From the IMG/VR virus record IMGVR_UViG_3300042545_000830, positions 1 to 61,354 of that record: a DNA stretch of 61,354 bases, one strand, 5' to 3'. Below the pieces are notes generated by a model that was not told where the DNA came from, did not search any database, and saw nothing but the letters and a program-made list of their open reading frames with translations. A program made the translations under genes and the position numbers. Position 1 is the stretch's first letter. The number at the start of each line of letters is the position of its first letter. Shown piece by piece: positions 33,765 to 57,022 of this stretch. This DNA is from a virus.

Positions 33765-33772
33765 TATTTACT
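33765..33772 (-). promoter_or_regulatory. Late-type promoter for baseplate unit 33758-29095
   Basis: AGTAAATA on the minus strand, 6 nt before ATG 33758; predicted leader about 1 nt. Confidence 0.6.
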
Positions 33773-33804
33773 TTTGAAGTAAAAATGTTATTATTATATA
33801 ACTT

Positions 33805-34404
33805 ATGCAAAATAATTCAAAATTCCACAAAATCATAGGAATAGCAGGTGCTTCTAGGTCTGGAAAAGATACTTTATGCCGATCATTGATACGAATTTTG
33901 AATGAAAAATACAATATTGAAGCAGAAAGAAGGTCTATAGCAGGAGATTTGATCAAAAAAAACCTGCGAAGTATCATAATGAATAGCGTTGGAATAGATT
34001 CATTTACCGAAAATACAGAAGAAAAGGAATTAATTAGACCATTATTGGTAGAATATGGAAAATTGATGAGAAATAATACAAAAGGTAGATATTTTGTTGA
34101 AAATTTTGAAGTTGTAAAAGAAAAAACTCTAATAATTCCAGATATAAGATATGCCGAATACTTAAAAGACGAAATTCACTGGATTAGAAATGAAGTAAAT
34201 GGATATTTAATCTTTTTAGAAAGAGAAAACATCAAAGATGCGAATGAAACAGAAAAAATTAACAACAAAAAGTTGAAAATTCTTTCAAATTGCTGTATTC
34301 GTTGGGGTAAATTGGACGAAAATGACAAAAGTGATAGAAAAATTATAGATGATTATTCTATAAAAATTTTAAATGATATATTTCAGTCTACCACTTGCCA
34401 ATAG
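33805..34404 (+). CDS. 1: Deoxynucleoside monophosphate kinase-like protein (T4 gp1-like)
   Basis: P-loop GASRSGKDT at 15-23 within IIGIAGASRSGKDT, the arrangement of phage dNMP kinases, followed by a LID-like central region and IIPDIRYAEYLKDE near 111. The enzyme would phosphorylate dNMPs recycled from degraded host DNA. It is a single plus-strand gene placed between two minus-strand tail units. Its 3' end overlaps the minus-strand zinc-protein gene by 17 bp. At 199 aa it is smaller than T4 gp1 (241 aa). Confidence 0.72.
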   Translation: MQNNSKFHKIIGIAGASRSGKDTLCRSLIRILNEKYNIEAERRSIAGDLIKKNLRSIIMNSVGIDSFTENTEEKELIRPLLVEYGKLMRNNTKGRYFVENFEVVKEKTLIIPDIRYAEYLKDEIHWIRNEVNGYLIFLERENIKDANETEKINNKKLKILSNCCIRWGKLDENDKSDRKIIDDYSIKILNDIFQSTTCQ

Positions 34405-34702
34405 GACATTTTTCGGCTTTTAAATATGTCTTAATAGCCATATTACATCCACATTTGGTACATCTCTCCGCTGATTTATTAAAAAATTCGCACCCATTGC
34501 AAATTTCTAATCTTTTTTTTGCTTGTTCGTTGTTTTCGGTTAATGGATTTCCAGCGGCTACGCTTTTTATGTTTCGCACAATAGAATTTCCCAAGTTTTT
34601 TGCCATTTGTGTATTAGAAGGATAGTTATTATCCTTATAACCTTGTAAACTTCTAATTTTAGAAGCGTCCAGTCTTGCTTTTAATTGTTCTTTGTCTATC
34701 AT
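34388..34702 (-). CDS. Small zinc-binding protein (DUF6171-like, 104 aa)
   Basis: The C-terminal 40 residues contain C68-x2-C71, C81-x2-C84-x-C86 and C99-P, with the pattern C-NGC-x-FF then RCTKCGC and KCP-x-x-KW. That is the layout of a small conserved zinc domain I know from phages and their hosts (DUF6171). The first half is charged and helical. The start overlaps the stop of the hub gene by 4 nt (ATGA), so it is translated with baseplate genes; a role in tail assembly is inferred. Confidence 0.72.
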   Translation of the reverse strand: MIDKEQLKARLDASKIRSLQGYKDNNYPSNTQMAKNLGNSIVRNIKSVAAGNPLTENNEQAKKRLEICNGCEFFNKSAERCTKCGCNMAIKTYLKAEKCPIGKW

Positions 34703-36567: not shown

Positions 36568-36569
36568 AA

Positions 36570-37169
36570 TTAACAACTCTCCTCATCTACGTTTTTTAAT
36601 AATTCCACATTCAATTGATTGAATGCAAAAGAAGCAGTACAAGATATTTCACTTGGATCTTGGTGTGAAAAATTTATTTCTGATAAAGAAACCGGAAAAA
36701 CATGATTGTATTTAAATGCTACTATTTTTTTGTTGTATTCATCCAATGCATATATAGTAAATTTCGATACTAATTCTGTCATAGGATTTTCCAATTTTGG
36801 TTTTTTACTAGATGCCATGATTTCCATATGCACATCTGATTTTGATGTTTGAGAATCATTAAAAATATTTAACCATTTCCAAATTATCCAATAGTTTTTA
36901 TAACCATTGTCTATAAAAAATCTAACATTTAAAGGTTGATATGATGGTCTTGATAAAGATGATGCTTTGTAAACCTGATTATCAAATGGAACATCGATAG
37001 AAGGAACACTTACACTAGGAATGGGTGATCCATATGTAGTAAACTGAATTTGATCGGGATGATAATTTTTATCGAGAACATTATCATATTTTGTTTTTAA
37101 AAATTTTGGAAGATCCAAAACCATTAAAAATTTATCATTGCGTGTTTTATTTAAAATTGCCTGATTCAT
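36570..37169 (-). CDS. Tail-tube-fold protein, baseplate-proximal (199 aa)
   Basis: Recognisable as a T4 gp19-type tube fold: a short N-terminal helix with FLMVLDLP, then IQFTTYGSPIPSVSVPSIDVPF, YQPLNVRFFID and W-x2-WKWLN, and a closing beta strand with SEISCTASFAF. The true tube gene is at 45856-46434, so this is a paralogue, perhaps the tube initiator (like T4 gp54) or a hub adaptor. It begins 1 nt after the terminase stop and is followed by the hub gene. Confidence 0.68.
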   Translation of the reverse strand: MNQAILNKTRNDKFLMVLDLPKFLKTKYDNVLDKNYHPDQIQFTTYGSPIPSVSVPSIDVPFDNQVYKASSLSRPSYQPLNVRFFIDNGYKNYWIIWKWLNIFNDSQTSKSDVHMEIMASSKKPKLENPMTELVSKFTIYALDEYNKKIVAFKYNHVFPVSLSEINFSHQDPSEISCTASFAFNQLNVELLKNVDEESC

Positions 37170-37170: not shown

Positions 37171-39015
37171 TTAAAAAATTATAATTGGTCTATATTCTTC
37201 TGCTTGTTTTTCTTCTACTATTTCTCTTTTTGGTTCTGGTTTATTTCCCCAATTCAAAAGCCAATTTGTTAATTCTGCCTGTTCTTGAGCAAGTGTTATT
37301 GGTTCATTCACATTAAATTTTCCAACGTGTGATATACTTGTATTTATCGATGCATTCTTTTTAAATTGAGAAACAGCACCACTCAATAGAGGACTCTTTT
37401 TCAACAAATCTGAATTGTCGGAAAATGGTTTTATTTTTAAGGGTTTTCCTTGATCATCAGTGTCAGCAATAACATAATATTTTGATGCTATGGATGGTTC
37501 TAATATGAAAATACCCCAAATTAAAGATAATACTCTATCGTCTAAATCATCATCTTTTCTTTTACTGTATGTATAATTCTCATGTCTAACGAAATTATTA
37601 AGTTCCAGTAAAGTATCGATGTCATATAATCTAACCGCATTTAAACTATTGACCCAATATCTAAAATTGGTAACACCTCTATATTTTGTATTGGTGTGGT
37701 TGTGTATACCAAAACGATTTTCATTGTTATAGTGTTTACTGAATCCCTCAAAATGATATGAAACCACCGATTCGTAGTTATGAGTGTGACAAAGAACATC
37801 CAACACCTGTTGTCCGTTATTATTGTTCTCAACAAGTATAGGAGGACGCCCCCAATCCTCCAGAATGCCCATTAAACGTGTTCCAAAATGAAAAGGACTC
37901 ATTGAGTTGGTTGCATATATAGCAACTTGTTTAATACTGGTTAAATCTGATATGTCTAATATCTGAGCAACTGTATTGGAACGACCAATTCCCTCCCCAA
38001 CGTCAACACCAATAGCATAAAAAGATTCTGGATTTGGTTCTTGGAATATTTTGTAGTTTCCATTATCCATTACCAATATAGGTTCCTTACATTGGGCTTT
38101 TAATTCGGCTAAAAGATTAGGATCAATAGCTGTTTTATTTGGATCATGGAATACATTGGCAAATTCTTGATCGAAATCGTCTTGAGAACCCATAGCGGAA
38201 ATGGTTTCTTTCTTCCATTCCTCGTCACGACCGGGCACATCCCACCAGTTAACTACCTCCAAATGCCAATCACTATTTTCTTTTTGTGATTCTTGATACA
38301 ATTCATAAAATTTATTATCCGTACCATTTGGTGTACTAATAATAACCAATTGTGACTTTTTAGATGATGAAATAATAGGAATAGCAGATTTCCACAACTC
38401 ATTCATGAGTTCATTTGGACAATGTGCCATTTCATCAATAATAAGAAGGTTACTTGTAGATCCGCGAGGACCAGCAGAAGAGGTTGTACTAATTTTTATA
38501 GAAGAATCATTTGCCAATTGAAAACCATCTTTTCTCCATGATTTAACACTTGGCTTCATCCAAACCGGAAGTTGTTCAAATGCCATTTTTATTCTTTCGA
38601 ATATTTCTTTAGCGGTAGATTCTTTATTTGCTACGATAGTAATACGTTTATCGTTTTGAAAACATACTATCCACAATGCATAAATTGTTATGGTTGTAGT
38701 TTTTCCAGACTGTCTACTGGAAAGTACAATATTAAATCTTTCGTTTTTAAAAGCTTTTAAAAGTCTTTTTTGATACTTATAAAGTTCTATCTTTTTCTTA
38801 CCTTCATCCAAGGTTGTTATATAAAAATACTGTTCTGCAAAGTGTAGAATGCTTTTGTTACAAAGCTTCAATTCCTCGATCATGGAATCAGTCCATTTAA
38901 ATTGAGAATTTCCTCTTAATAGATTTTCGTTTCCTTTATAAAACGCACCATCTACTAAAATATCTTCTGGATCGATTTCGTCTTCGATTTCTTCTATTTT
39001 TTTCTTTCTTCCCAT
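37171..39015 (-). CDS. 17: Terminase large subunit (gp17-like)
   Basis: ATPase motifs: Walker A SRQSGKT at 100-106 and Walker B LLIIDE ending at D194-E195. Nuclease motifs: GVDVG with D338, LVENNN near 395 and DDLDDRV near 490. This is the packaging motor that translocates and cuts concatemeric DNA. Its length (614 aa) is close to T4 gp17 (610 aa). It is unusual in being placed inside the tail genes, transcribed together with the tube-like and hub genes downstream rather than beside portal or capsid genes. Confidence 0.95.
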   Translation of the reverse strand: MGRKKKIEEIEDEIDPEDILVDGAFYKGNENLLRGNSQFKWTDSMIEELKLCNKSILHFAEQYFYITTLDEGKKKIELYKYQKRLLKAFKNERFNIVLSSRQSGKTTTITIYALWIVCFQNDKRITIVANKESTAKEIFERIKMAFEQLPVWMKPSVKSWRKDGFQLANDSSIKISTTSSAGPRGSTSNLLIIDEMAHCPNELMNELWKSAIPIISSSKKSQLVIISTPNGTDNKFYELYQESQKENSDWHLEVVNWWDVPGRDEEWKKETISAMGSQDDFDQEFANVFHDPNKTAIDPNLLAELKAQCKEPILVMDNGNYKIFQEPNPESFYAIGVDVGEGIGRSNTVAQILDISDLTSIKQVAIYATNSMSPFHFGTRLMGILEDWGRPPILVENNNNGQQVLDVLCHTHNYESVVSYHFEGFSKHYNNENRFGIHNHTNTKYRGVTNFRYWVNSLNAVRLYDIDTLLELNNFVRHENYTYSKRKDDDLDDRVLSLIWGIFILEPSIASKYYVIADTDDQGKPLKIKPFSDNSDLLKKSPLLSGAVSQFKKNASINTSISHVGKFNVNEPITLAQEQAELTNWLLNWGNKPEPKREIVEEKQAEEYRPIIIF

Positions 39016-39019
39016 GTAT

Positions 39020-39027
39020 AATAAATA
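39020..39027 (+). promoter_or_regulatory. Late-type promoter on plus strand
   Basis: AATAAATA, 12 nt before ATG 39040. It overlaps by 2 bp the opposed terminase promoter at 39026-39033. Confidence 0.4.
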
Positions 39028-39033
39028 CTTATG
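39026..39033 (-). promoter_or_regulatory. Late-type promoter for terminase unit
   Basis: CATAAGTA on the minus strand, 10 nt before ATG 39015. Confidence 0.5.
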
Positions 39034-39039
39034 TAAATA

Positions 39040-39429
39040 ATGAAAAAATTAAACACCAAAGATTTTTTTAATAAAATTAAAATAAATAAAAATTATGATT
39101 ATATATTTGAATATCAATCAAATTGGAAATTTTTTGAGTTAAATTTAAATAGTAAAAATGGAATTTGGAATACCTTACAAGACAAAATAGAAGAAGTTTG
39201 TGAAGATTCAATTATATCAGCGGATGATATTGATAAATTTCTAGATGAAAATCCAGATATTGAATTTGAATTTGAATTTTTTTTACATATTATGCCAGAA
39301 ATTTTCTTTTTTAAAAAAGAAGGAAAGTTATACTGTTACACATGCAATATAGTAGAAGCAGAAAATAAAAATTATTCCCATGTGATAATAAGATGCTTTT
39401 TTGATACTAAAGAGTTTTTTAGTTTTTAA
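39040..39429 (+). CDS. Hypothetical acidic protein (129 aa)
   Basis: Starts 24 bp from the divergent terminase gene. The product is acidic and aromatic: a run of Phe, Glu and Asp around IEFEFEFFLHIMPEIFFF and a single YCYTC. No family recognised. It is a lone plus-strand gene inside the minus-strand tail region and overlaps the convergent wedge gene by 11 bp. Confidence 0.55.
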   Translation: MKKLNTKDFFNKIKINKNYDYIFEYQSNWKFFELNLNSKNGIWNTLQDKIEEVCEDSIISADDIDKFLDENPDIEFEFEFFLHIMPEIFFFKKEGKLYCYTCNIVEAENKNYSHVIIRCFFDTKEFFSF

Positions 39430-39814: not shown

Positions 39815-40834
39815 TCATGATCCTCCATTTGCGGGTACTGCTGCTGCATCGGATGCTCTAATACCATTTACAGTGCTTTGAACTGTATCTTTAGCATATT
39901 GTAGACCATTACCATATAATTCAGTAGCAGTATTTTTAATACTTCCAATAACATTAACAGATTTACTTCCTATTGCTCCTGCAAAAGTATTTGAACTGGT
40001 AGCAACCAATTGTTTTAGTGTTATACTAATTTTATATGCTTCTGGTGTTAATATTGTAGTATTTCCTTTATATTCCGATAATTCTCTAGTAGTTCCTATG
40101 CTTAAAATTTCTAAATTTTCAACATATGCTGCTGGCCAATCAATACCACCTAAACAATTTTGAGTTTTTACTTTGTATATTTTTGGTGGAATGTAGGTTA
40201 AAAACGTATTTCTGGTTTTTAAATTTTGAAAAGTTAAAAGAGAAACCAACAAATAGTTATTATATGCATCATTTATCGAAACTGTATTATATAATGGAAA
40301 AGTTATGGTAATAGTTTCTGGTGAAGTTCCGGTAAACATTTGAACATCTTCAGTACCAAAATCACCAAGAACACCGACCGCTAATCCCATTGCTTTTCCT
40401 GCTATATTACCAAGTGTACTACTAGCTTTTTCTCCACTTCCACCCAATATTTTATTCAAATCAAACTCGGTTTTACCCCAACTATTACTTATAGATCTAA
40501 TTTTATCTCCATCTTTTATTAAAAGTGGTAGATTGTACTCAAATCCTGTTGCATTACCATTATATAAAATAGTATATGGATCTAATCCACCGGAAAAAAA
40601 ATCTATAGCAGTATTAGCCAATCTTGCTAATGCCTGAACCCAAACACCAAATTCTAATTCATATTCGATTAATGTAACAGATGGAACCTCGTCGGTGCTA
40701 CCCGCATTTTTCCATCTGAAATTGTCAACTACATTTATTCTTCCGCTACCATTAGGAACGGCTTTTAATGCAGAATTTGCAATATCTATTCCGGGTATAT
40801 CAATCGGAAATTCTCTTTCAGTTAATCGAAACAT
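39815..40834 (-). CDS. Putative tail tube cap/baseplate protein (gp48-like, 339 aa)
   Basis: The C-terminal half has strands typical of the gp48/gp54 tube-cap group: ITITFPLYNT, then a helix, IPPKIYKVKTQNC and LTPEAYKISITLKQL, where cap proteins usually have a P-x-x-F/Y-x-x-x-x-T-F motif. The middle contains a Gly/Ala-rich loop. The final 60 residues are Ala/Ser/Gly-rich and may be disordered. The position between the tape measure and wedge genes supports a baseplate location. Confidence 0.58.
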   Translation of the reverse strand: MFRLTEREFPIDIPGIDIANSALKAVPNGSGRINVVDNFRWKNAGSTDEVPSVTLIEYELEFGVWVQALARLANTAIDFFSGGLDPYTILYNGNATGFEYNLPLLIKDGDKIRSISNSWGKTEFDLNKILGGSGEKASSTLGNIAGKAMGLAVGVLGDFGTEDVQMFTGTSPETITITFPLYNTVSINDAYNNYLLVSLLTFQNLKTRNTFLTYIPPKIYKVKTQNCLGGIDWPAAYVENLEILSIGTTRELSEYKGNTTILTPEAYKISITLKQLVATSSNTFAGAIGSKSVNVIGSIKNTATELYGNGLQYAKDTVQSTVNGIRASDAAAVPANGGS

Positions 40835-40839
40835 AATAA

Positions 40840-40847
40840 TACTTATT
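40840..40847 (-). promoter_or_regulatory. Late-type promoter of tube-cap gene
   Basis: AATAAGTA on the minus strand, 5 nt before ATG 40834; overlaps the stop codon of the tape measure gene. Confidence 0.6.
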
Positions 40848-43107
40848 ATGTAAACTCTCCTTGGATGGATCTTCTAAAGTTATATATAGAATCCGGTCTG
40901 GTTCCACTCAATATAACATCCAACATATTACCATTAGAACCACCAGAATTGTTAACAACAGAAACATTTGATGGATTTGATTTGTTGTTTTCTAATGATT
41001 CTGGAATTTTATAAATTCCTTTATTTATAGATTGTACCAATAGTGTTAACTCTTTTAATGCTGTGTCAAATACTCCACCAGTTTTATATGCCAACACATT
41101 ATCATCGGGATGTAAAATATTCGCAGTATTTGTATTTTTATCAAAAAGAATAGAGTTACCTTCGGTACTGGTCATTAAACTTTTGAAAGAAAAATCGTCT
41201 TTTCTATCCACTTTAGGTTTTAATTTTCTATATTCTGCCAATCTATTACTTGTCATTGTTAATAAAGCTTGAGACGTTTCCCAATTTTCTCTTGCTTCTC
41301 TTTCTTTTTGATCATCATCAGCAGATGCCCACCACCCCTCGCCATTTGCTTTTGCTATATCATCATATTTTTTCTTTTTTTCTTCTAAATTTTTTCTAGC
41401 ATCTTCTAATTTTGATAATAATAATTTTTCTCGGTCTTCATCATATTTTACTTTATTAGGATCAAAAGGTTTTGCTGAATTTTGAATAGTTCTATTTTCT
41501 ATTGATTTATTATCATCAGAAAAATCAATAGAATCATTTACCTTAATATCTCCTGTATTATCATCATATTCCAATCCATACCATTTCGCTATTGATCCTC
41601 TAAGACCACCTATTTTTGGTACAAAACTTAAAACCCATCTAAACATACTTTTCCTAAGTTGATCTTGAAAGTTATCCCATGAGAAACTTTCATTTCCTTC
41701 TGTTCCAAAAGCATTAGAATTAACCAATGATTGCAATATAGCAGGAAATGGACCTAAGAATGGAGTCTCGGTTAAATAATCTAATGCCCCTCTCCAATTT
41801 CCTTGTCCCAACTCCCAAATACCTCTACCCCATTTAATAAGTCCACCGATAATAGGAATTTCTTGAATGAAATCAACTATCTTATTGACGTAATCCATTT
41901 TTATAGATTGTTTTTCATCCATTGTTGCTCCTCTACCAGCTTTATAATCCAAAAATGCATTTAATGCGGATGCGCCAATAGATAAAGGCAATGCTAATGG
42001 TGCAAGTGGTGTAAATACCAATAAATTTGAAATACCGCCAACCAAATCGATTATACCTGCAATAGTATCTCCCTTTTCAAAACGATCCCAAGCATAGTAA
42101 AAGCTTATTAAACTACCAATAATAGGAATAGTTTTAAAAGCAACAGCACCCATGCCTCTAAATAAACCACCCGCAATTTTAGGTATCAAGGTTTTCCATG
42201 CTGCGGGTGCGGCAGTTGCTCCTGCCTTTACAACATCATCTCCGAATCCTAGTTTGAAAATAGCCTTTAACCCACCTTCTAATAAATCACCAAATGTTGT
42301 AAATGCCTTTCCAGCCAAATTAAACAACCAACCACCACCAATTTTCAATCCACCCATTGTAAAAAATTTTCCAATACCTTCTACGATACCTTCAAATCTA
42401 TCAAATACATCCAGTTTAATTCCTACCCTTTCTTCCAACCAAGGTTTGATATGCTTATCCCAAAATGAAGATATTAACATAGCACCGATACCACCCGCTA
42501 TTAATAAAGATGCTAATGTACCCAATAGTCCATCACCACTACTAGATTCTTCACCTTTAACTGTAGTTCTACCGAATCTTTTTATGTTTTGTTCGTTTAT
42601 TCCGCTTAAAACACCACCCAACTGTTTTATTGTTTCATCTGTAAGAGAAACTTCTGGTGTTTTTTGTGTTAATGTTTGCTGTTCAGCAAATTGATTGACG
42701 GGTTTATTTGAAATTACAGAAGAAATATTTGAATTTGATAAATTTGAAATTTGTGGTTTATCATTTAAATTTAAATTAAGACTATCTAAATTTTTCTTTA
42801 GAATTTCTTCTGTTTTCTTTTTATATTCTTCTCTTAATTCTATTATTCCTAATGGATCGCTATATTGATCTATAATTTCCTTTTTTCCTTTAGTATCTTC
42901 TATTTTTTTCTCTACTTTTGAATAATAATCCTTTGCTTTATTAAAAGTTGGTGTTACATACTTCTCTTTAAACTCTTTTTTTAAATTTTGTAGGTAATCT
43001 ATACCAGTTTCATCAGAAGTGAGTAATAATTTTAATACTTCAGTTGAATCTACCTCATTAGAGATAAATTTTGATAATACATCATCAATAGAAACTGTTC
43101 CTGTCAT
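40846..43107 (-). CDS. Tail tape measure-like protein (753 aa)
   Basis: The N-terminal 110 residues are a charged coiled-coil-like region. A central 200-450 block has hydrophobic, Gly-rich segments (LLGTLASLLIAGGIGAMLI, GTLIPKIAGGLFRGMG-type) as in proteins that insert into membranes during ejection. A second coiled coil lies near 560-620. The end, DDNVLAYKTGGVFD and later SIYNFRRSIQGEF, is close to a C-terminal motif I associate with T4-like tail proteins. At 753 aa it would imply a tail of about 110 nm using the usual 1.5 angstrom per residue rule. Confidence 0.65.
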   Translation of the reverse strand: MTGTVSIDDVLSKFISNEVDSTEVLKLLLTSDETGIDYLQNLKKEFKEKYVTPTFNKAKDYYSKVEKKIEDTKGKKEIIDQYSDPLGIIELREEYKKKTEEILKKNLDSLNLNLNDKPQISNLSNSNISSVISNKPVNQFAEQQTLTQKTPEVSLTDETIKQLGGVLSGINEQNIKRFGRTTVKGEESSSGDGLLGTLASLLIAGGIGAMLISSFWDKHIKPWLEERVGIKLDVFDRFEGIVEGIGKFFTMGGLKIGGGWLFNLAGKAFTTFGDLLEGGLKAIFKLGFGDDVVKAGATAAPAAWKTLIPKIAGGLFRGMGAVAFKTIPIIGSLISFYYAWDRFEKGDTIAGIIDLVGGISNLLVFTPLAPLALPLSIGASALNAFLDYKAGRGATMDEKQSIKMDYVNKIVDFIQEIPIIGGLIKWGRGIWELGQGNWRGALDYLTETPFLGPFPAILQSLVNSNAFGTEGNESFSWDNFQDQLRKSMFRWVLSFVPKIGGLRGSIAKWYGLEYDDNTGDIKVNDSIDFSDDNKSIENRTIQNSAKPFDPNKVKYDEDREKLLLSKLEDARKNLEEKKKKYDDIAKANGEGWWASADDDQKEREARENWETSQALLTMTSNRLAEYRKLKPKVDRKDDFSFKSLMTSTEGNSILFDKNTNTANILHPDDNVLAYKTGGVFDTALKELTLLVQSINKGIYKIPESLENNKSNPSNVSVVNNSGGSNGNMLDVILSGTRPDSIYNFRRSIQGEFT

Positions 43108-43114
43108 ATATTAA

Positions 43115-43122
43115 TACTTAGA
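43115..43122 (-). promoter_or_regulatory. Late-type promoter of tape measure gene
   Basis: TCTAAGTA on the minus strand, 7 nt before ATG 43107. Confidence 0.5.
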
Positions 43123-43135
43123 TTAATATATGTTT

Positions 43136-43969: not shown

Positions 43970-43971
43970 AA

Positions 43972-44967: not shown

Positions 44968-44972
44968 CCGTA

Positions 44973-44980
44973 TATTTAAA
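44973..44980 (-). promoter_or_regulatory. Late-type promoter of 331-aa gene
   Basis: TTTAAATA on the minus strand, 5 nt before ATG 44967. Confidence 0.45.
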
Positions 44981-45826: not shown

Positions 45827-45832
45827 ATATAA

Positions 45833-45840
45833 TATTTATG
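45833..45840 (-). promoter_or_regulatory. Late-type promoter of tube-like gene
   Basis: CATAAATA on the minus strand, 6 nt before ATG 45826. Confidence 0.65.
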
Positions 45841-45855
45841 TCTTTGTCTTTATTA

Positions 45856-46434: not shown

Positions 46435-46441
46435 ATGTTAA

Positions 46442-46449
46442 TATTTATC
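46442..46449 (-). promoter_or_regulatory. Late-type promoter of tube gene
   Basis: GATAAATA on the minus strand, 7 nt before ATG 46434, filling the sheath-tube spacer. Confidence 0.7.
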
Positions 46450-48663: not shown

Positions 48664-48676
48664 AATTGTATATCTA

Positions 48677-48684
48677 TATTTATC
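48677..48684 (-). promoter_or_regulatory. Late-type promoter of sheath gene
   Basis: GATAAATA on the minus strand, 13 nt before ATG 48663; predicted leader about 8 nt, the longer end of the range seen. Confidence 0.6.
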
Positions 48685-48731
48685 TTTAATTTTTACCACT
48701 TTCCCAATAAATGTTTTTAATCGTATTGTAG

Positions 48732-48739
48732 AGTAAGTA
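48732..48739 (+). promoter_or_regulatory. Late-type promoter of 93-aa gene
   Basis: AGTAAGTA, 5 nt before ATG 48745. Confidence 0.6.
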
Positions 48740-48744
48740 ATAAT

Positions 48745-49026: not shown

Positions 49027-49035
49027 CATTTGACG

Positions 49036-49842: not shown

Positions 49843-49847
49843 GAAAA

Positions 49848-49855
49848 TACTTACC
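49848..49855 (-). promoter_or_regulatory. Late-type promoter of GIY-YIG gene
   Basis: GGTAAGTA on the minus strand, 5 nt before ATG 49842. Confidence 0.55.
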
Positions 49856-49912
49856 AATCTTTACAGGCAATATTTTATTTTTTTTAAAAAAATGGAAATA
49901 TAACATATAAAC

Positions 49913-49920
49913 GATAAATA
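49913..49920 (+). promoter_or_regulatory. Late-type promoter of PhoH operon
   Basis: GATAAATA, 5 nt before ATG 49926; predicted +1 is the A of the ATG. Confidence 0.65.
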
Positions 49921-49925
49921 ATATC

Positions 49926-50306
49926 ATGAATATGTTCGATTCAATTTTGGAAAAATATTTAAATGAAAATAATATTTTACAACAAATAGATGATTTAAAA
50001 AAAAGAGTATCACAAGCTCCACCATTACAACAAAACGTGATTGGTGCTGCTGCTGAAGCAATGTCGGATGCTTCATCTAAAAAAGATCCAAAATTATTAG
50101 AACTAGCAAATAGCATTCAGGATAAAATTTTAAATAATAAACAAATCACACCAGAAGAATTAGAAGTTTTAAGTAAAATTTTTCCAAAGGACGAAGAACA
50201 AACAGAAGATGAAAACGAAGAAGAAAATTCATCAGTAATTAAATCTACCCCAAACATAAAAACATCTCCAACATCTATTACAAATTCGACTAGTTATAAA
50301 GTATAA
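49926..50306 (+). CDS. Hypothetical acidic-tailed protein (126 aa)
   Basis: An N-terminal helix with FDSILEKYLNENN, Ala-rich middle (VIGAAAEAMSDASSKKDPKLLELA) and acidic then Ser/Thr-rich tail. No catalytic motif. The pattern resembles small head-core or capsid-associated phage proteins. It precedes phoH by 5 nt. Confidence 0.55.
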   Translation: MNMFDSILEKYLNENNILQQIDDLKKRVSQAPPLQQNVIGAAAEAMSDASSKKDPKLLELANSIQDKILNNKQITPEELEVLSKIFPKDEEQTEDENEEENSSVIKSTPNIKTSPTSITNSTSYKV

Positions 50307-50311
50307 ATTTT

Positions 50312-51118
50312 ATGAGTAAAAAACGCCCCGTTAAAGGGAGAGGAACAGCTGAAACGACTGCTGTTCAAAACGAAGATAATTCACCTTATGTTTTTCAAAA
50401 AGAAAAAATAAATTATGAATTACAAATTAAAGATTTGCCTTGGACAGACAAGCAAAAAGAAATCATAACTACTTTTCTAGATAAAAAAACCAAAGTTTTA
50501 TTATTAAAGGGTCCAGCAGGTACAAGTAAAACAACATTAGCAATGTATTGTGGGTTGACTCTTTTAAACAAAAAAAGAATTTCTGATCTTGTATTGGTTC
50601 GTTCGGCAGTAGAATCTTCGGATTCTAAACTTGGGTTTTTACCCGGTGACATCATGGACAAGTTTAATGTTTATCTAACACCATTTCACGATAAATTTTC
50701 AGAATTATTGAATAAATCTCAAGTCGATAGATTACAAAAAGACAATAGGATTACTATTTGTCCTATCAATTTCGCAAGAGGTTTACATTTTTCTGCAAAA
50801 TTTGTGTGCGCGGATGAGATTCAAAATTTTTCAAAAAGAGAAATTCATACAATAATGAGCCGTATAGGAGAATTTTCTAAAGTTTTTCTATGTGGAGATC
50901 CAGAACAAAGTGATTTACCAGCAGGTAAATCGGGATTTAACAAAGTATATGATCTTTTTAACAATGAAGAGGGAAGAGAACATGGTATTTTTTGTATGGA
51001 ATTGACAGAGGAAGATATTGTTCGTTCTGAACTTTGTAGGTACATTACCCATAAATTTAAAGAATTACAAACAAATGAACAACCAAAATATGATTGGAAA
51101 CCATCAGAAGGAAAGTAA
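50312..51118 (+). CDS. phoH: PhoH-like P-loop ATPase
   Basis: Walker A GPAGTSKT at 67-74, LVLVRSAVES and LGFLPGD after it, VCADEIQNF as Walker B near 168, and LCGDPEQSDLP near 192. This is the classic PhoH layout. PhoH-like ATPases are common in marine phages; suggested roles include RNA-related activity under phosphate stress, but the phage function is unsettled. It is in one operon with the preceding acidic protein and perhaps the following zinc ribbon. Confidence 0.93.
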   Translation: MSKKRPVKGRGTAETTAVQNEDNSPYVFQKEKINYELQIKDLPWTDKQKEIITTFLDKKTKVLLLKGPAGTSKTTLAMYCGLTLLNKKRISDLVLVRSAVESSDSKLGFLPGDIMDKFNVYLTPFHDKFSELLNKSQVDRLQKDNRITICPINFARGLHFSAKFVCADEIQNFSKREIHTIMSRIGEFSKVFLCGDPEQSDLPAGKSGFNKVYDLFNNEEGREHGIFCMELTEEDIVRSELCRYITHKFKELQTNEQPKYDWKPSEGK

Positions 51119-51121
51119 ATA
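51114..51121 (+). promoter_or_regulatory. Late-type promoter of zinc-ribbon gene
   Basis: AGTAAATA, 5 nt before ATG 51127; overlaps the phoH stop. Confidence 0.6.
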
Positions 51122-51126
51122 TTGAT

Positions 51127-51279
51127 ATGAATAATAAACCAGAATACAAACAAGTAACAAATATACCAATCGGATGTACCTTTTGTGGTTCTACCGTACA
51201 TGGAAAAGTAGTCGGAGAACAAGTTAGATGGGTATGTCCCAGATGTTCAAATTTAGTTAAAGTTGGAAAATCAAGTTAA
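51127..51279 (+). CDS. Zinc-ribbon mini-protein (50 aa)
   Basis: Two CxxC knuckles, C17-C20 and C37-C40, separated by a short beta hairpin, form a rubredoxin-like zinc ribbon. I chose ATG 51127 because a late-type promoter ends 5 nt upstream. An in-frame ATG at 51094 lies inside phoH. It shares TAATG with the following gene. Confidence 0.65.
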   Translation: MNNKPEYKQVTNIPIGCTFCGSTVHGKVVGEQVRWVCPRCSNLVKVGKSS

Positions 51280-51803
51280 TGATAAATTTGAAGAAAATAT
51301 TGAACGAAGATGTTGGTAGTATCTGGTCGCCTAGACAATACCAAGCCAGTAGCATGGCTCCAAGAAAAGATCAAGGTCCATTATTTTCTCAAAGAGATGG
51401 TAAAAACTTTCCATATCAACAGAATGCGCCCGGTGTGTCGCAATCTACTACAAATGAGCCACAAAAACCAGAAACTTTTCCTTGGCCATTACAAAATATA
51501 AATAGCGATTTAGCAGATGGTTTAATTTTCATATTAGAAGCTGCTAAAAAAATAAGCATTTGCGGTAAGATTAATAAATCGTTAACAAAAAAACAAAAAA
51601 ACAATTTAGTTCAAGTTTATAAAAAACTTATCGTTGTATCAAAAGAGATTGAAAAAATTGGTATTACTTTACCAAGTATGATTAATATGTCATCAGAAAC
51701 AACCGAACAAATTCCACCTCAACCGTTCCAATCTCCTTATATACCATCTTCTGTACCAGTTTCTAGTCAAGAGACATCAAATTTACAATCACAAAAGTTG
51801 TAA
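51279..51803 (+). CDS. Hypothetical Pro/Gln/Ser-rich protein (174 aa)
   Basis: Begins MINLKKILNEDVGSIW, a short amphipathic start often found on phage virion-associated proteins, followed by a Pro- and Gln-rich segment, a helix around DGLIFILEAAKKI, and a second Pro/Ser-rich end. Likely largely disordered with one helical hairpin. Coupled to the zinc-ribbon gene. Family unknown. Confidence 0.55.
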   Translation: MINLKKILNEDVGSIWSPRQYQASSMAPRKDQGPLFSQRDGKNFPYQQNAPGVSQSTTNEPQKPETFPWPLQNINSDLADGLIFILEAAKKISICGKINKSLTKKQKNNLVQVYKKLIVVSKEIEKIGITLPSMINMSSETTEQIPPQPFQSPYIPSSVPVSSQETSNLQSQKL

Positions 51804-51808
51804 ATTGC

Positions 51809-51837
51809 TTGACAATATTTTAAATTTAACATAATAT
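51809..51837 (+). promoter_or_regulatory. Sigma70-like promoter with consensus -35
   Basis: TTGACA at 51809-51814, 17-nt spacer, TAATAT at 51832-51837, 6 nt to ATG 51844; predicted +1 is the A of the ATG. Confidence 0.65.
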
Positions 51838-51843
51838 ATATTC

Positions 51844-52269
51844 ATGTTAATAAATAAAATTCTTTTTAAGAATGTATTAAAATCAACAATCACGGTATTG
51901 TTTATTTCTTTACTTGGTGCTTATGGTGGACATCTTTTTGGTTTAAGTTTCTTTGGAATCTTTTATATACTTTTGTGTATTCAATATGTTTTGTTTTATT
52001 CAATATCAAAAGTAATAAATTCATTTTTTATAGAAAAAACAAAACAAAAACAACTGGAAAAATTAGAAAATCTTTCCACAATTTTAAATTGTGCATATTG
52101 CAATAAAGAAAATATTATGACATTTTCTCCAGATGATAATTCTAGAGTAGAATTTACTTGTAATCATTGTGATAAAAAAAATATGGTGACTATTCAATTT
52201 TTAGTAGCAAGAATTACAGAATCTGTAAACATACCAAAAGTTACAGGTGTTCAATTAGAAGATATTTAA
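51844..52269 (+). CDS. Membrane protein with cytoplasmic zinc ribbon (141 aa)
   Basis: Two hydrophobic segments (about 12-32 and 36-57) form a likely helical hairpin in the inner membrane. A charged linker leads to a ribbon with C83-x2-C86 and C106-x2-C109. There is no signal peptide. With its own early-type promoter it may act soon after infection, for example at the membrane; function unknown. Confidence 0.65.
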   Translation: MLINKILFKNVLKSTITVLFISLLGAYGGHLFGLSFFGIFYILLCIQYVLFYSISKVINSFFIEKTKQKQLEKLENLSTILNCAYCNKENIMTFSPDDNSRVEFTCNHCDKKNMVTIQFLVARITESVNIPKVTGVQLEDI

Positions 52270-52270
52270 A

Positions 52271-52576
52271 ATGAAAAATAAATCATTAAAATGGTGGGAA
52301 ACTGTACACGCAGAAGCATCGGAATTAGCTAGATGGATAGCATTATACGAGGCGGTTAATACAATTGCCGATAAAGCAGAAGAAAAAAATATACCTTTTG
52401 ATAAGGTAGAATTAAAACCTATAGCTATTCACAAATACATGGATGCAACAGAAAATAATATCTTGAAAAAGGTATTACGACAAATTTATAAAGTTGATGT
52501 TTGTTATAATGGAGATGCACCAAAAGAATATTTAGAAATTCTACCAGAGCCTAAAAACGAATACTCAGTATATTAG
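52271..52576 (+). CDS. Hypothetical protein (101 aa)
   Basis: Starts 1 nt after the membrane-protein gene. Contains SLKWWETVHAEASELARWIALYEAVN, seen as an amphipathic helix with Trp pairs, then a basic helix and a CYNGDAPKEYLEILP end. Soluble, no recognised family. It overlaps the convergent neck gene by 4 bp. Confidence 0.58.
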   Translation: MKNKSLKWWETVHAEASELARWIALYEAVNTIADKAEEKNIPFDKVELKPIAIHKYMDATENNILKKVLRQIYKVDVCYNGDAPKEYLEILPEPKNEYSVY

Positions 52577-53202
52577 TAATCACCATATACTGATGTATCA
52601 CTGCAAGGATTTTCTATCAAGTAATCAAAATTTTTCTTTGATGCTTGCTCTATAATATCATTGTCATTATTTGGATTATTCCCATCACCAGAACCAGCAC
52701 TGCCTGTTTCGTGACTATAATCATTACGTTTAGCCTTAAAAAACCAAACATAATGTCCTGCTATGGCATTTAATTGAAATTCATCAATTACTTCTGTTAT
52801 TTCATAAACAGTTGGTCCTCTTTTTGGAAAATTTAAACGATCACTTCCAAATTCAGACATTTTTATTAAATCTCCCGCTTTTGGTTCAGAACTAACTCCA
52901 AAATTTTCTGTAAAATGATATGGATGAATAACACCATTCATATCACTATCTGCTACTATACCAAATTTGGATAACATATAAGAATCATTATTCAAATTTA
53001 AAAGAACAACCATTGATTTTGGTGTTTGAAATGATGTATTTGGTTGTTCTCCGTATATAGGGTTCATTTCATCTATGGAGGCATTATTAAAATAGTATTC
53101 TATTTCTTGACCATTTATTTCAATTTGCTCTTTCCACCAACGAGAAAAATTATTTCTTTCATTGGCATTTATTTGTTTATTTAAAAATCTTAATTTTTCC
53201 AT
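52573..53202 (-). CDS. 14: Putative neck/head-completion protein (gp14-like, 209 aa)
   Basis: The arrangement resembles T4 gp14: a G-x-E-x-x-YY segment near residue 31 (INGQEIEYY), then DEMNPIYGE, a strand-helix-strand with FGI, a P-x-x-GDLI motif near 109 (EPKAGDLIKM), YEITEVIDEF and a final FFKAKRNDY strand. Gp14 with gp13 closes the filled head and joins the tail. The Gly/Asn/Asp-rich C-terminal 50 residues are likely flexible. It is 2 nt after its upstream neighbour. Confidence 0.55.
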   Translation of the reverse strand: MEKLRFLNKQINANERNNFSRWWKEQIEINGQEIEYYFNNASIDEMNPIYGEQPNTSFQTPKSMVVLLNLNNDSYMLSKFGIVADSDMNGVIHPYHFTENFGVSSEPKAGDLIKMSEFGSDRLNFPKRGPTVYEITEVIDEFQLNAIAGHYVWFFKAKRNDYSHETGSAGSGDGNNPNNDNDIIEQASKKNFDYLIENPCSDTSVYGDY

Positions 53203-53204
53203 AA

Positions 53205-53570
53205 TTAAGCCTTTTTCATTTGAATAGAATAACCTTTTTGTGGATCATATACCAAAAATCTACCAATTCCGGTTTGTTCATTTTTTTGTTTTAATGCTAT
53301 TTCAAAGGGTTGTGTTTTGTCTCTTTTGTCTAAATTAAGACTGTAATCATTTATTATTTTTTGTAATTCTACTTCTGATATTTTTTTAAATCCGGTATTA
53401 TAAGATGCTTTAACTACGCTTTGATTATTATAATCATTATGTGGAGAATGGTATCTAGCAACTATGTTTGTTTTCTGATTTGTTATACCAGCTTCGGTTC
53501 TATGTCTAGGATTTGATGCCAATTTAATATTTGCTATACCATTATTTTCAAAAAAAGTTTTAAAGTTCAT
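53205..53570 (-). CDS. Hypothetical protein (121 aa)
   Basis: Of two adjacent ATGs (53573 and 53570), the second is 6 nt from the TATAAGTA motif, matching the spacing elsewhere, so I start at 53570 (MNFKTFF). The protein is basic, with a SNPRHRTEAG region and FKKISEVELQKIINDYSLN as the main helix; it ends in a short beta hairpin. No family recognised. In one unit with the neck gene. Confidence 0.58.
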   Translation of the reverse strand: MNFKTFFENNGIANIKLASNPRHRTEAGITNQKTNIVARYHSPHNDYNNQSVVKASYNTGFKKISEVELQKIINDYSLNLDKRDKTQPFEIALKQKNEQTGIGRFLVYDPQKGYSIQMKKA

Positions 53571-53576
53571 CATATA

Positions 53577-53584
53577 TACTTATA
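53577..53584 (-). promoter_or_regulatory. Late-type promoter for neck unit
   Basis: TATAAGTA on the minus strand, 6 nt before ATG 53570; it lies directly beside the terminator at 53587-53620. Confidence 0.6.
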
Positions 53585-53586
53585 AC

Positions 53587-53620
53587 AAAAAAAGCCCTGC
53601 TTTAATAAGCAGGGCTTTTT
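53587..53620 (-). terminator. Rho-independent terminator after acidic core-protein gene
   Basis: GCCCTGCTT (53594-53602), loop TAAT, AAGCAGGGC (53607-53615), flanked by A-run and T-run so it can act in both directions. It ends the minus-strand transcript from 54495 and precedes the neck-unit promoter. Confidence 0.88.
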
Positions 53621-53637
53621 ATTTAATTTATATTTTT

Positions 53638-54495
53638 TTATTGATCAAAAAGACCTTTTCCAACTTTTACACCACCAACATTGTTGTTTTTTCCGGTTAG
53701 TTTGGAAATAGCACTGTCAGTTGAGTGTTTTTCAATCTTTCCATCCGCACCTTTAATTGCAGATGAGGTTGCAGACTTCTTTGAAACTGGTACTGCACCC
53801 TTTACGACTTTATTTTTCTTGCTGGTTAGATGACCTTTATCTAAATCTTTAACCAAAGCATGTCCTAATTCTTTGGCATCTACGGATTCTTTGAATGGAT
53901 CTTCTTCTTCGTCTTCACCATCAACAGAAGAATCTTCTTCGGAATCATCAAACATTTCATCTTCGGTTTGATCTTCGCTATCGGTTTCTTCTTCGGTTTC
54001 GCCTAAAACTGATTGTAAAACATCAACCAATTTTTGTGCGGTTTCTCTATCTAATGTGAAAGATACTTCTTCGGAACCTTCTTCGGAACCTTCTTCGGAA
54101 CCTTCTTCGTCTTCTATTCCTTCTTCGGAACCTTCTTCACCAAATCCAGAACCAAACTCATCAGATGATTCGAGTTCGTTATCTTGGTCGGTAGAGAAGT
54201 TAAATTGTCCTTCTTCACTTAATACTCTATTATAAAGAGCATCAAATGGATTTAATGATTCATTTTTAGTTTTTTTCATAAGTTTTGGTTCACCCGTAGC
54301 ACCTTTAGTTGTTAATTCTGCTGGAGCTTCTTCTGGAGTTTCTAAATCAACATTATCAAGTGTACAATCAGAATCTGGTACGGAAGATTCGTCACCGAAA
54401 ACTTTACCTACTTGAGATTTGGTTGATCCTACTATACCAGAAGATTTATCTGATTCTTCTAACATTGTTAAATATGCTTTTGTGATTGGGTCCAT
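53638..54495 (-). CDS. Very acidic protein, head-core/scaffold-like (285 aa)
   Basis: About residues 105-200 are dominated by Glu, Asp, Ser and Gly, including the tandem EEGS repeats. The C-terminal 80 residues are Lys-rich (KKNKVVKGAVPVSKK). Acidic middle and basic ends recall T4 prohead core proteins, which fill the procapsid and are later degraded. The end GKGLFDQ is short and hydrophobic. It has its own terminator, pointing to high expression. Family not proven; an internal or decoration protein is the main alternative. Confidence 0.6.
   Translation of the reverse strand: MDPITKAYLTMLEESDKSSGIVGSTKSQVGKVFGDESSVPDSDCTLDNVDLETPEEAPAELTTKGATGEPKLMKKTKNESLNPFDALYNRVLSEEGQFNFSTDQDNELESSDEFGSGFGEEGSEEGIEDEEGSEEGSEEGSEEVSFTLDRETAQKLVDVLQSVLGETEEETDSEDQTEDEMFDDSEEDSSVDGEDEEEDPFKESVDAKELGHALVKDLDKGHLTSKKNKVVKGAVPVSKKSATSSAIKGADGKIEKHSTDSAISKLTGKNNNVGGVKVGKGLFDQ
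54066..54109 (-). repeat. 12-bp tandem repeat coding EEGS
   Basis: CTTCTTCGGAAC is repeated perfectly three times, then partially (plus-strand reading). Unit length keeps the frame, so copy-number change would alter protein length without disrupting it. Confidence 0.85.
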
Positions 54496-54509
54496 AATAT
54501 TTGTATGAA

Positions 54510-54517
54510 TATTTACA
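54510..54517 (-). promoter_or_regulatory. Late-type promoter of acidic core gene
   Basis: TGTAAATA on the minus strand, 14 nt before ATG 54495. Confidence 0.45.
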
Positions 54518-54543
54518 CTAGTTATATTACAAATCTATAAAAA

Positions 54544-54951
54544 TTATTTCTTTTTTGGTTTAACTTTATCAGAAGTAATTTTTTTACCGGATTTTTTTGC
54601 TGACTTTTTAATTCCTTTAACTATTTCTTCTTTATGTTTTTTACCAAATTTTTTACCAGTTTTCTTTTCCATGGATTTTTCAATCGCCCAAGGATTTACT
54701 TTCTTTTTTGCTTCAACGATTGGTTGAATACCATGTACAAAATTTTCAGATTTTACTATTTTTTTTATATAATTCTTTTTTTCTTCATCCTCATCCTCTT
54801 CATCATCTTCAGAAACGGTTTCTGTTTCAGATGTCATATCTTCTTCATCGGTTTCAGATTCTTTTTTATCAGTTTCAGATTCTTTTATTACATTATTTAA
54901 TAAAATTTTTTGATACGCTTCTTCCAATAATAATTGATCTTTTGTTCTCAT
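54544..54951 (-). CDS. Charged bipartite protein, prohead-core/internal-like (135 aa)
   Basis: Starts MRTKDQLLLEEAYQKIL, a helix resembling starts of several phage head-associated proteins. Residues 22-58 are acidic, with a duplicated KKESETD unit; the C-terminal half is very basic, with NPWAIEKSMEKKTGKKFGKKHKEE around residues 86-110. Such bipolar charge is usual for internal or core proteins packed with DNA. In the same late region as the acidic gene at 53638-54495, 48 bp apart. Confidence 0.58.
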   Translation of the reverse strand: MRTKDQLLLEEAYQKILLNNVIKESETDKKESETDEEDMTSETETVSEDDEEDEDEEKKNYIKKIVKSENFVHGIQPIVEAKKKVNPWAIEKSMEKKTGKKFGKKHKEEIVKGIKKSAKKSGKKITSDKVKPKKK

Positions 54952-54956
54952 GTTAA

Positions 54957-54964
54957 TATTTACT
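54957..54964 (-). promoter_or_regulatory. Late-type promoter of bipartite protein gene
   Basis: AGTAAATA on the minus strand, 5 nt before ATG 54951. A second GATAAATA at 54967-54974 is 15 nt upstream, so the promoter is doubled. Confidence 0.6.
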
Positions 54965-55763
54965 TATATTTATCTAATATAATATTAGATTCTTTTTTCA
55001 AATCCAAACATTCTATCAATTCGTAATCATTTTCACCATTAACCCAAACAATATATGATTTAGGAACTTTGAATGATGTTACCTTTTCAATTATTGTAGA
55101 ATATAAAGATAATTGTAGACTATATTTTGCATATTCACATTGTTGTAAGTGTTTTAATTCTTTTAAAAGAGTTTCTTTTCTTGGATTTTTTCTTTTAATT
55201 TCTTTATTTGTTTTATAATCAAACATAACCAATTCATTAGTTTTAAAATTATAAGAAAGGTTATCTATACTACCACATATACCCGATTCTTTATCACCAA
55301 TAACAAATTCACATTTGATTAGAATATGATCTTGTTTCCACCAGTTATAAAAATTTATAAAATTTTTAATTAATTTTGCAACTTCATTATAATAGTTTTC
55401 CACCGAATTATTAGATTTGAAATCTTTTCTTTTATTAAAAAACAAATTTATAGAGTCTCTATCCAAACTGGTTTGTTTCCTATTAAAATAGTTTTCGACA
55501 TATTTGTGAAACTCTGATCCTTTATGACAAGAATAATCTTTCGTAAATTCCCATTGATTCAATATTTCATCAACACTAAAACCATCTCTTTGAGCAACAA
55601 ACGATGCCGCTTTTTGAGAATCGAAAGGTTTTTCGTAATTTTTAATCAATTGAGAAACTGACATTTTAGCAGGTTCTCCTGCTATCGTATACTTGTGATT
55701 TTTTTCTATAAATAAAATATCAGAAAAACTATTTTCTAAACTAACAAGAGTATCGAAATTCAT
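54960..55763 (-). CDS. PD-(D/E)XK nuclease, Cas4/RecB-like (267 aa)
   Basis: Start ATG 55763 is 1 nt after the AAA+ stop; a TTG at 55781 is upstream. An N-terminal motif GEPAKMSVSQLIKNYEKPFD, KGSEFHKYVE near 84, CGSIDNL with the first catalytic Asp, MFDYKTNK near 195 (D-x-K) and CEYAKYSLQLSLYSTII (QLSLY) follow the RecB-type exonuclease order. It probably degrades or trims DNA ends, with possible roles in recombination or attack on host DNA. It appears cotranscribed with the ATPase. Confidence 0.78.
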   Translation of the reverse strand: MNFDTLVSLENSFSDILFIEKNHKYTIAGEPAKMSVSQLIKNYEKPFDSQKAASFVAQRDGFSVDEILNQWEFTKDYSCHKGSEFHKYVENYFNRKQTSLDRDSINLFFNKRKDFKSNNSVENYYNEVAKLIKNFINFYNWWKQDHILIKCEFVIGDKESGICGSIDNLSYNFKTNELVMFDYKTNKEIKRKNPRKETLLKELKHLQQCEYAKYSLQLSLYSTIIEKVTSFKVPKSYIVWVNGENDYELIECLDLKKESNIILDKYK

Positions 55764-55764
55764 A

Positions 55765-56970
55765 TTAAAATCCGAATCCAATTTTCTTTTCTTCTTTTTT
55801 AGTTTCTCCCATTTCGGTTTTCTTTGTTAGATTATAAATCTCAGCAATTACCATCTTTTTTGTAATATTTTCTTCTATTTCTTTTTTGGAGAATCCAAGA
55901 TGCTTTGCGAGTTTTTTGGCATCCTCTATTTCCAGAGGTCCAAATTCATAATCAACTTGCAATCTACCTTTTCTACGCAATGCTTCATCGATATCTTGTT
56001 TTGCACAATTATATGTGATGATCAATGGACATCTCAATACATCCCCTAAAATACCATCAGATAAGTTTAGAAGAGATGTTACAGCAGAAGAATCGTAATT
56101 ATCCCCCATTCTTTTTACTATTGCTTTTTCGGCATCTTCTAGAATCAATATTGAATTTTTCTTTTTCAGAAGACTAGAGAAAGTAGTTGGATCATTAATA
56201 AAAGATTCTATCATTGTTGCTGGAATATAAATAAAATCTTTGTTTACTTTAGTAGTAAGATACTTTAGGAAGGTGCTCTTTCCCGCACCCGGTGCACCAT
56301 GAAACATATACAAACCATTATCGTTTTTGTTTAGTCTATCGATAATTTCTTTTTCAATACCCAAAAACTTTTTACCATAGTTTAATTCTATGTTAATATC
56401 TTCTGGTATCTTTATATCAATAGGATCAAAAACATATTCATCATATCTATTTTTTACATACATATGAATTTTAGTAGATTCGTGTTTTGCTATAAATGAT
56501 TCAAAATCATTTAAATGTAAATTGGTAATATTTGATGTGTAAATTATAAGCATCTCATATGTTTTTTTAGAATCTTCTTTTTGTTTTTCTTCTTTAGATT
56601 TCGTTTGAAAATCGATATATTCTCCCTCGGTTGAAACAAATCCTAGAGAATTTGAATCATCGACTTCATCCTTTACCATCAATTTTACAAAAATATCTTT
56701 ATATTCAAAAATTAGAGTTCCGCTTTTAAATGAAAAGGTATCTTTAATCAAGGATTTTAAATTTCCTGTACATGAACTATACATTAAACTACCGTTTTCT
56801 AATAAAAAATTCAAAATATCGGATTTGAATGCTTCGCTTATATACAAAAAACAAGGAGGATAATCGGAATATGTTGTAATGTATTTATTAATAGGAAAAA
56901 GGTTTCCACTATCATGAATATCGTAATAGCCCTTTAGATCTGTTTTGAATTTGTTTTTTGAATTGAACAT
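55765..56970 (-). CDS. AAA+ ATPase (Bcs1/FtsH-like core, 401 aa)
   Basis: Residues 1-190 form a separate, mostly beta N-terminal domain. Then GIEKEIIDRL, Walker A GAPGAGKST at 225-233, Walker B LILEDAE at 275-281, sensor-1-like TYN near 320 and an arginine-finger region RRKGR at 332-336. Sensor 2 is less clear. This is a protein-remodelling type of AAA+, not the clamp loader (the gp44 pattern with SRC is absent). Directly followed by a PD-(D/E)XK nuclease, which may be its partner. The C-terminus is Lys/Glu-rich. Confidence 0.8.
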   Translation of the reverse strand: MFNSKNKFKTDLKGYYDIHDSGNLFPINKYITTYSDYPPCFLYISEAFKSDILNFLLENGSLMYSSCTGNLKSLIKDTFSFKSGTLIFEYKDIFVKLMVKDEVDDSNSLGFVSTEGEYIDFQTKSKEEKQKEDSKKTYEMLIIYTSNITNLHLNDFESFIAKHESTKIHMYVKNRYDEYVFDPIDIKIPEDINIELNYGKKFLGIEKEIIDRLNKNDNGLYMFHGAPGAGKSTFLKYLTTKVNKDFIYIPATMIESFINDPTTFSSLLKKKNSILILEDAEKAIVKRMGDNYDSSAVTSLLNLSDGILGDVLRCPLIITYNCAKQDIDEALRRKGRLQVDYEFGPLEIEDAKKLAKHLGFSKKEIEENITKKMVIAEIYNLTKKTEMGETKKEEKKIGFGF

Positions 56971-57014
56971 AAAAATATGATACTATATTATAAAAACTAT
57001 TAATGCAATAAAAA

Positions 57015-57022
57015 AATAAATA
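57015..57022 (+). promoter_or_regulatory. Late-type promoter of HExxH gene
   Basis: AATAAATA, 5 nt before ATG 57028. Confidence 0.5.

Follow-up and report, generated by a model that had tools for sequence, protein, structure and literature searches.

Late and early promoter elements in a clade of uncultured T4-like phages are located immediately upstream of start codons, and these putatively gp55-dependent late and sigma70 early promoters are in all likelihood placed so that the predicted mRNAs are leaderless or nearly so. It is proposed that the late motif serves as the -10-like element in late promoters of the T4 type, which depend on gp55, and that RNA synthesis in both temporal classes begins with the A of the initiating ATG or at most about 8 nucleotides before it. 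Late and sigma70-type early mRNAs would both be translated without Shine-Dalgarno contact, with ribosomes presumably binding to the 5'-terminal AUG as the initiation route on mRNAs of the clade, while genes inside operons would probably depend on coupling to the gene upstream.

Late elements in the window

The window, that is the whole stretch of DNA analysed here, is a linear IMG/VR virus record of 61,354 bases with a GC content of 28.8% in which no tRNA genes were found. Profile searches identify it as part of the genome of an uncultured, T4-like myovirus (T4 superfamily), with matches to replication and recombination proteins (gp43 DNA polymerase, a DnaB-like helicase, UvsX, UvsY and gp32), nuclease-type proteins resembling SbcC/SbcD (gp46/47) and endonuclease VII (gp49), and virion and packaging proteins that include the terminase large subunit, the tail sheath and tail tubes, among others. 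No DNA-level relative was found among 50,697 phage records (megablast, window 40000-58000), and the terminase, sheath, polymerase and gp55 of the window each share less than 60% protein identity with every record matched. The tail tube family phrog_45 is matched by three separate genes (36570-37169, 45005-45826 and 45856-46434). Two short ORFs (12124-12696 and 15760-16293) match overlapping parts of DNA methyltransferase profiles with phrog_2675 in common, and are possibly duplicated or fragmented methyltransferase genes.

The window encodes a gp55-like late sigma factor which consists of sigma region 2 only and scores slightly under the cut-off against Pfam Sigma70_r2 (5e-05); this gp55 homologue would be the reader of the late element. 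A late sigma of the gp55 type is present in 10/10 clade contigs tested and also in HTVC008M, a cultured Pelagibacter phage. The gp45-like sliding clamp, the activator of late transcription in T4, has orthologues in all six larger relatives. Among the proteins scanned there was no PHROG match for the coactivator gp33, a small protein of divergent sequence, the window being only a fragment.

The initial annotation had listed 14 start codons on both strands that are preceded by a variant of the T4 late octamer with the core RTAARTA, at a distance of 5-7 nucleotides between motif end and ATG (hereafter the gap). Reading out the 50 bases upstream of each of these ATGs showed all 14 distances to be correct, and the core to be exact at 12 of them, the elements at 44967 (TTAAATA) and 43107 (CTAAGTA) being mismatched at the first base only. 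Several elements are additional to that list (Table 1), including TTAAATA before 57432(+) and 23584(+) at gaps 7 and 5, respectively, and elements at the longer gaps of 10, 13 and 14 before 39015(-), 48663(-) and 54495(-). For the sheath gene, ATG 48663 is a more likely start than GTG 48699, which would give the longest ORF. The late element is kept across orthologues while the surrounding sequence diverges. Overlapping late elements on opposite strands occupy the space between divergent genes 24 nucleotides apart (39015-39040), and similar divergent pairs are located at 48663/48745 and 49842/49926.

Table 1. Promoter elements and related features of the window (positions in nucleotides; gap, nucleotides between the end of the motif and the ATG)
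Feature	Position	Strand	Remarks
Late element ATAAATA	6152..6158	-	gap 7 to ATG 6144; not in initial annotation
Late element ATAAATA	20521..20527	-	gap 6 to ATG 20514
Late element GTAAATA	33765..33771	-	gap 6 to ATG 33758; conserved in L096, L102
Late element ATAAGTA	39026..39032	-	gap 10 to ATG 39015 (gp17 terminase); predicted leader ~5 nt; not in initial annotation
Late element ATAAGTA	40840..40846	-	gap 5 to ATG 40834; conserved in L003, L004, L097, L011
Late element CTAAGTA (1 mismatch)	43115..43121	-	gap 7 to ATG 43107; gap 7 in 4/4 orthologues
Late element TTAAATA (1 mismatch)	44973..44979	-	gap 5 to ATG 44967; weakest of set; not found in 12/18 orthologues
Late element ATAAATA	45833..45839	-	gap 6 to ATG 45826 (tail tube-like); gap 5-7 in 28/52 orthologues
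Late element ATAAATA	46442..46448	-	gap 7 to ATG 46434 (tail tube)
Late element ATAAATA	48677..48683	-	gap 13 to ATG 48663 (sheath); predicted leader ~8 nt; not in initial annotation
Late element GTAAGTA	48733..48739	+	gap 5 to ATG 48745; gap 5 in 18/28 orthologues
Late element GTAAGTA	49848..49854	-	gap 5 to ATG 49842
Late element ATAAATA	49914..49920	+	gap 5 to ATG 49926; gap 5 in 5/5 orthologues
Late element GTAAATA	51115..51121	+	gap 5 to ATG 51127; at gap 4-9 in 26/26 orthologues; overlaps stop codon of upstream phoH-like gene
Late element ATAAGTA	53577..53583	-	gap 6 to ATG 53570; second in-frame ATG 53573 directly upstream, at gap 3
Late element GTAAATA	54957..54963	-	gap 5 to ATG 54951
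Late element ATAAATA	57016..57022	+	gap 5 to ATG 57028; gap 5 in 10/14 orthologues
Probable early promoter TTGATT-N16-TAATAT	17639..17666	+	6 nt before gp43 ATG 17673
Early sigma70 promoter TTGACT-N16-TATACT	21005..21032	+	8 nt before uvsX ATG 21041
Intrinsic terminator hairpin	53589..53620	-	directly upstream of 53573/53570 promoter; stem of 14 bp, -21.2 kcal/mol, z -5.5
gp55-like late sigma factor, sigma region 2 only	4694..5299	+	phrog_234 late sigma, 1.3e-24
gp45-like sliding clamp	26796..27548	+	phrog_223, 1.4e-09
Terminase large subunit gp17	37171-39015	-	profile search
Tail sheath	46450-48663	-	profile search

Over the window as a whole RTAARTA is rarer than chance, with 71 occurrences compared to 115 expected from shuffles. 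At gap 5-7 it precedes 12 of 69 gene starts, whereas 2,000 dinucleotide shuffles of the upstream sequences gave 0.67 on average and never more than 5, and among late-region genes the count is 10/32 with 0.38 expected. The degenerate form NTAARTA is found 14 times at gap 5-7 where 0.31 are expected (Poisson p ~5e-19). When all 6-mers were searched without bias, TAAATA at gap 5-7 came out on top in the window as well as in the two groups of relatives.

Position of the element across the clade and predicted start sites

A scan of uncultured relatives in IMG/VR with a sheath alignment gave at least 581 encoding stretches, and several of the relatives are contigs of 114-226 kb. The initial annotation had proposed that positional enrichment be sought over the full genome, and with genes called by one simple rule blind to the motif the element does peak at gap 5-7 in all six larger relatives. 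It occupies this position in 17/112, 28/227, 33/269, 22/178 and 30/266 genes of five of them and in 19/142 genes of the distant relative G011 (46% terminase identity, 37% GC), and Poisson p-values across the seven genomes range from 5e-19 to 4e-49. At gap 5-7 the close relatives have TAAATA and TAAGTA as their top 6-mers, and G011 has TAAATA. In another relative, G001, the gene for the large terminase subunit (L097, G001:80655-83552) contains two matching pieces about 1 kb apart in one 977-codon frame and holds an in-frame insertion that may be an intein.

With further sheath loci included, the pooled set comprises 2,095 unique gene-start upstreams of the clade. The late element is counted 9, 12, 8, 11 and 15 times at gaps 0-4, 172, 164, 75, 62, 54, 49, 41, 51 and 35 times at gaps 5-13 and 11 times at gap 14, over a far background of 2.4, although pooling exaggerates how many separate events there are, because related contigs are not statistically independent; the independent weight comes from G011, which is distant, from HTVC008M and from the two promoter classes. 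There is no motif peak at 70,198 non-start ATGs. For several gene products the alignment with distant orthologues extends to residue 1 at the N-terminus, and those ATGs are therefore real starts. In the clade the core reads TAARTA, the fourth base may be G and the first two octamer positions are weak, unlike in TATAAATA of T4.

The 8-bp late box of T4 spans -13 to -6 (PMC2988020), which bears out the earlier reckoning that at a gap of 5 a T4-type +1 coincides with the A of the ATG; we infer that the T4 octamer-to-+1 distance holds in the clade. The sharp lower edge at gap 5 would result from selection if transcripts made at shorter gaps lacked the start codon. A pyrimidine (T or C) occupies position -1 in 90% of the starts at gap 5 compared to 57% of those that lack a promoter motif, a bias which is expected of an initiation site. 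Predicted leaders are 0-8 nucleotides long with a mode of 0-1, and since most late elements lie at gap 6-13, leaders of 1-8 nucleotides would be no less common than strictly leaderless transcripts.

A possible alternative is that the mRNAs have short leaders and are not leaderless, with start-site choice being loose, leaders of 1-10 nucleotides and initiation by a non-Shine-Dalgarno 30S route. This would account for late gaps that reach 13, for the A-rich short leaders at gaps 9-13 and for the orthologue gaps of the sheath (clustering at 6 and 12) and the tube (5-7 and 9-11), but it is at odds with the modal gap of 5-6, the drop in counts under gap 5 and the pyrimidine at -1 of gap-5 starts, and is considered unlikely. 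Taken together, the sheath and tube gaps form two groups of about 5-7 and 9-13, which suggests two leader classes for abundant virion proteins, of 0-2 nucleotides and of 4-8 nucleotides, the latter A-rich.

Early promoters, temporal class and terminators

Promoters set directly at the start codon, the preferred reading, would also serve early genes. In the unbiased 6-mer search TTGACA surfaced at gap 28-30, and the starts that contain it carry full sigma70 promoters of the form TTGACA-N17-TATAAT-N6-ATG. Counts of TTGAC-N16-18-TANNNT by distance from the -10 element to the start are at most 5 per gap at 0-5 and then 31 at gap 6. The sigma70 -10 hexamer ends at -7, and the predicted edge is therefore at 6, one above that of the late box, as is seen, which would again put +1 on the A. 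Leaderlessness consequently looks genome-wide, because the early sigma70-type promoters are placed in the same way as the late ones, and it probably reflects the way in which the host starts translation. Runs of small same-strand genes, most of which follow a near-identical promoter TTGACACCTCCTCCTAAAGCATATAGAAT ending about 6 nucleotides before the ATG, form a repeated promoter cassette in G003 and G004 (L109:876-2093, L120:5233-5451 and L121:397-2447).

Judged by orthologue class, the late element is placed at late (virion) genes and not at replication genes. It is located at gap 5-13 before 63/67 orthologues of the tube gene and at gap 5-12 before 25/28 of gp17, and is found in 0/8 orthologues of the clamp, 0/6 of gp43 and 0/6 of uvsX. 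Sigma70-like promoters near the ATG take its place in 4/6 uvsX and 3/6 gp43 orthologues, while TTGAC occurs in the -35 region of 6/473 late-type starts, as expected of gp55-type promoters. Shine-Dalgarno 4-mers precede 167 of the 2,095 starts in comparison with 117-148 in control windows, leaving a small residual excess (8.0% vs about 6.4%).

An intrinsic terminator lies just before the promoter at 33 clade starts (e.g. L097:18168 and L101:16281), its stem ending 18-38 nucleotides before the ATG and in 31/33 cases 18-31 nucleotides before it. Because the terminator adjoins the promoter, no long leader is possible for such transcripts without read-through. At uvsX of the window the -35 hexamer is situated inside a terminator hairpin (20988-21022). 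The stem sequences of these compact terminator-promoter-ATG units differ between homologues.

Were the motif instead an A/T-rich translation-initiation element that supports ribosome binding without Shine-Dalgarno sites, and not a promoter, its fixed distance to the ATG and the scarcity of Shine-Dalgarno sites would be explained, and some bacterial groups do have neither Shine-Dalgarno nor leaderless signals (PMC3160421). Such a signal should not vary by temporal class, however, and the late element is present at virion genes and absent from the clamp, gp43 and uvsX, the latter two often having sigma70 promoters whose +1 again falls at or near the ATG. The meeting of two promoter classes at the same start position argues against a sequence-based translation signal, all the more as their edges are offset by the exact difference of the two promoter geometries; in T4, moreover, the same octamer peaks 20-29 nucleotides from the ATG with Shine-Dalgarno sites downstream. 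This explanation is thus highly improbable. Chance or a gene-calling artefact in AT-rich DNA, conceivable at the low GC content of the window for a motif that is AT-only except at its R positions, is refuted by the shuffles, the non-start ATGs, the p-values from seven genomes and the persistence of the signal in the 37% GC relative.

Other phages, the host and implications

The preferred reading, in which promoters of both classes abut the start codon, can be compared with T4, whose late promoters (TATAAATA, gp55/gp33/gp45-dependent) likewise consist of a -10-like element without a -35, followed by an AT-rich segment and used on both strands for virion genes, and which like the clade encodes gp55 and gp45. 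In T4, however, the element is mostly found 20-29 nucleotides before the ATG with a Shine-Dalgarno leader in between, and Shine-Dalgarno 4-mers precede 126/244 starts as compared to 13 in the control; the initial annotation had likewise called the T4 arrangement a different one. None of the computational tests applied here contradicted its prediction that late mRNAs are leaderless, with the qualifications that the arrangement is not confined to late genes, that the leader is not uniformly zero and that this phage is not unique. With the same gene caller, the late element of T4 peaks at gap 25-29 and that of S-PM2 at gap 20-39, and Cr30 and phiM9 show no element peak at gap 5-7.

HTVC008M shares the geometry of the clade, with NTAAATA at a gap of exactly 5 before 10 genes (p ~4e-12) that include those for the tape measure, the DNA end protector (gp2) and head closure, for which the deposited starts agree. 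The ten genes start at 6280, 7562, 11972, 16007(-), 18916(-), 18943, 31132, 49760, 75830 and 142360. Only 2/10 of these genes have Shine-Dalgarno sites, whereas 81/164 of its other genes keep them, unlike in the clade. In Rhodothermus phage RM378 (L197-L203), which has little Shine-Dalgarno signal, TATTTAA(N) is found at an octamer gap of 5 before 11 genes and at nearby gaps before more; the p-value of ~9e-18 is uncorrected for motif choice because the motif was picked from the upstream regions of RM378 itself. A gp55 profile found no match in RM378, and TATTTAA(N) is perhaps a candidate late-type promoter with a leaderless geometry like that of the clade.

In bacteria, -10 signals about 10-12 nucleotides from start codons indicate leaderless genes (PMC3160421), and -10-type signals lie at this distance in the clade. 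The TA-led leaderless genes described there (TANNNT about 10-12 nucleotides upstream, no Shine-Dalgarno) follow the same logic and match the early promoters of the clade, but they are cellular, whereas the clade consists of phages that mainly use a phage-specific late sigma element. Late promoters of phiKZ contain TATG with +1 on the G (PMC7598289), and as predicted for the clade the late transcription start overlaps a TATG sequence; unlike the clade, phiKZ uses a phage multisubunit RNA polymerase and no octamer, and its +1 is G and not A. Searches of the open-access literature turned up no account of T4-like late mRNAs that are leaderless, and the nearest match is AR9 with leaders of 26-491 nucleotides (PMC5312081).

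Two scans of genome contigs with sheath and gp43 alignments found neither a host nor a provirus, and WhiB, an actinobacterial signature gene, was not found in the ten contigs searched. A Bacteroidota host is thought unlikely, as the TTGACA/TATAAT early promoters differ from the Bacteroidota promoter type.

Late transcription in T4 is a textbook example, and T4 mRNAs carry Shine-Dalgarno leaders. If the present reading is true, a large environmental clade with T4 machinery but no leaders shows that the leader part of this system is not fixed, and suggests that phages tune the promoter-to-start distance to the host ribosome. We lean, with some reserve, towards the wider view that in a broad clade of the T4 superfamily most early and late units are leaderless because the host lineage starts mainly on 5'-terminal AUGs; the promoter-to-start distance would be the organising rule, with compact terminator-promoter-ATG units, and leader length would have tracked host ribosomes within the superfamily. 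The genomes yield a quantitative prediction, namely +1 on the A of the ATG for late promoters at gap 5 and early promoters at gap 6, and HTVC008M, where 10 such genes stand beside Shine-Dalgarno genes, is cultured and thus directly testable in the laboratory. Abutting promoters would help to assign start codons and temporal classes to the genes of uncultured phages and may provide a clue to the hosts.
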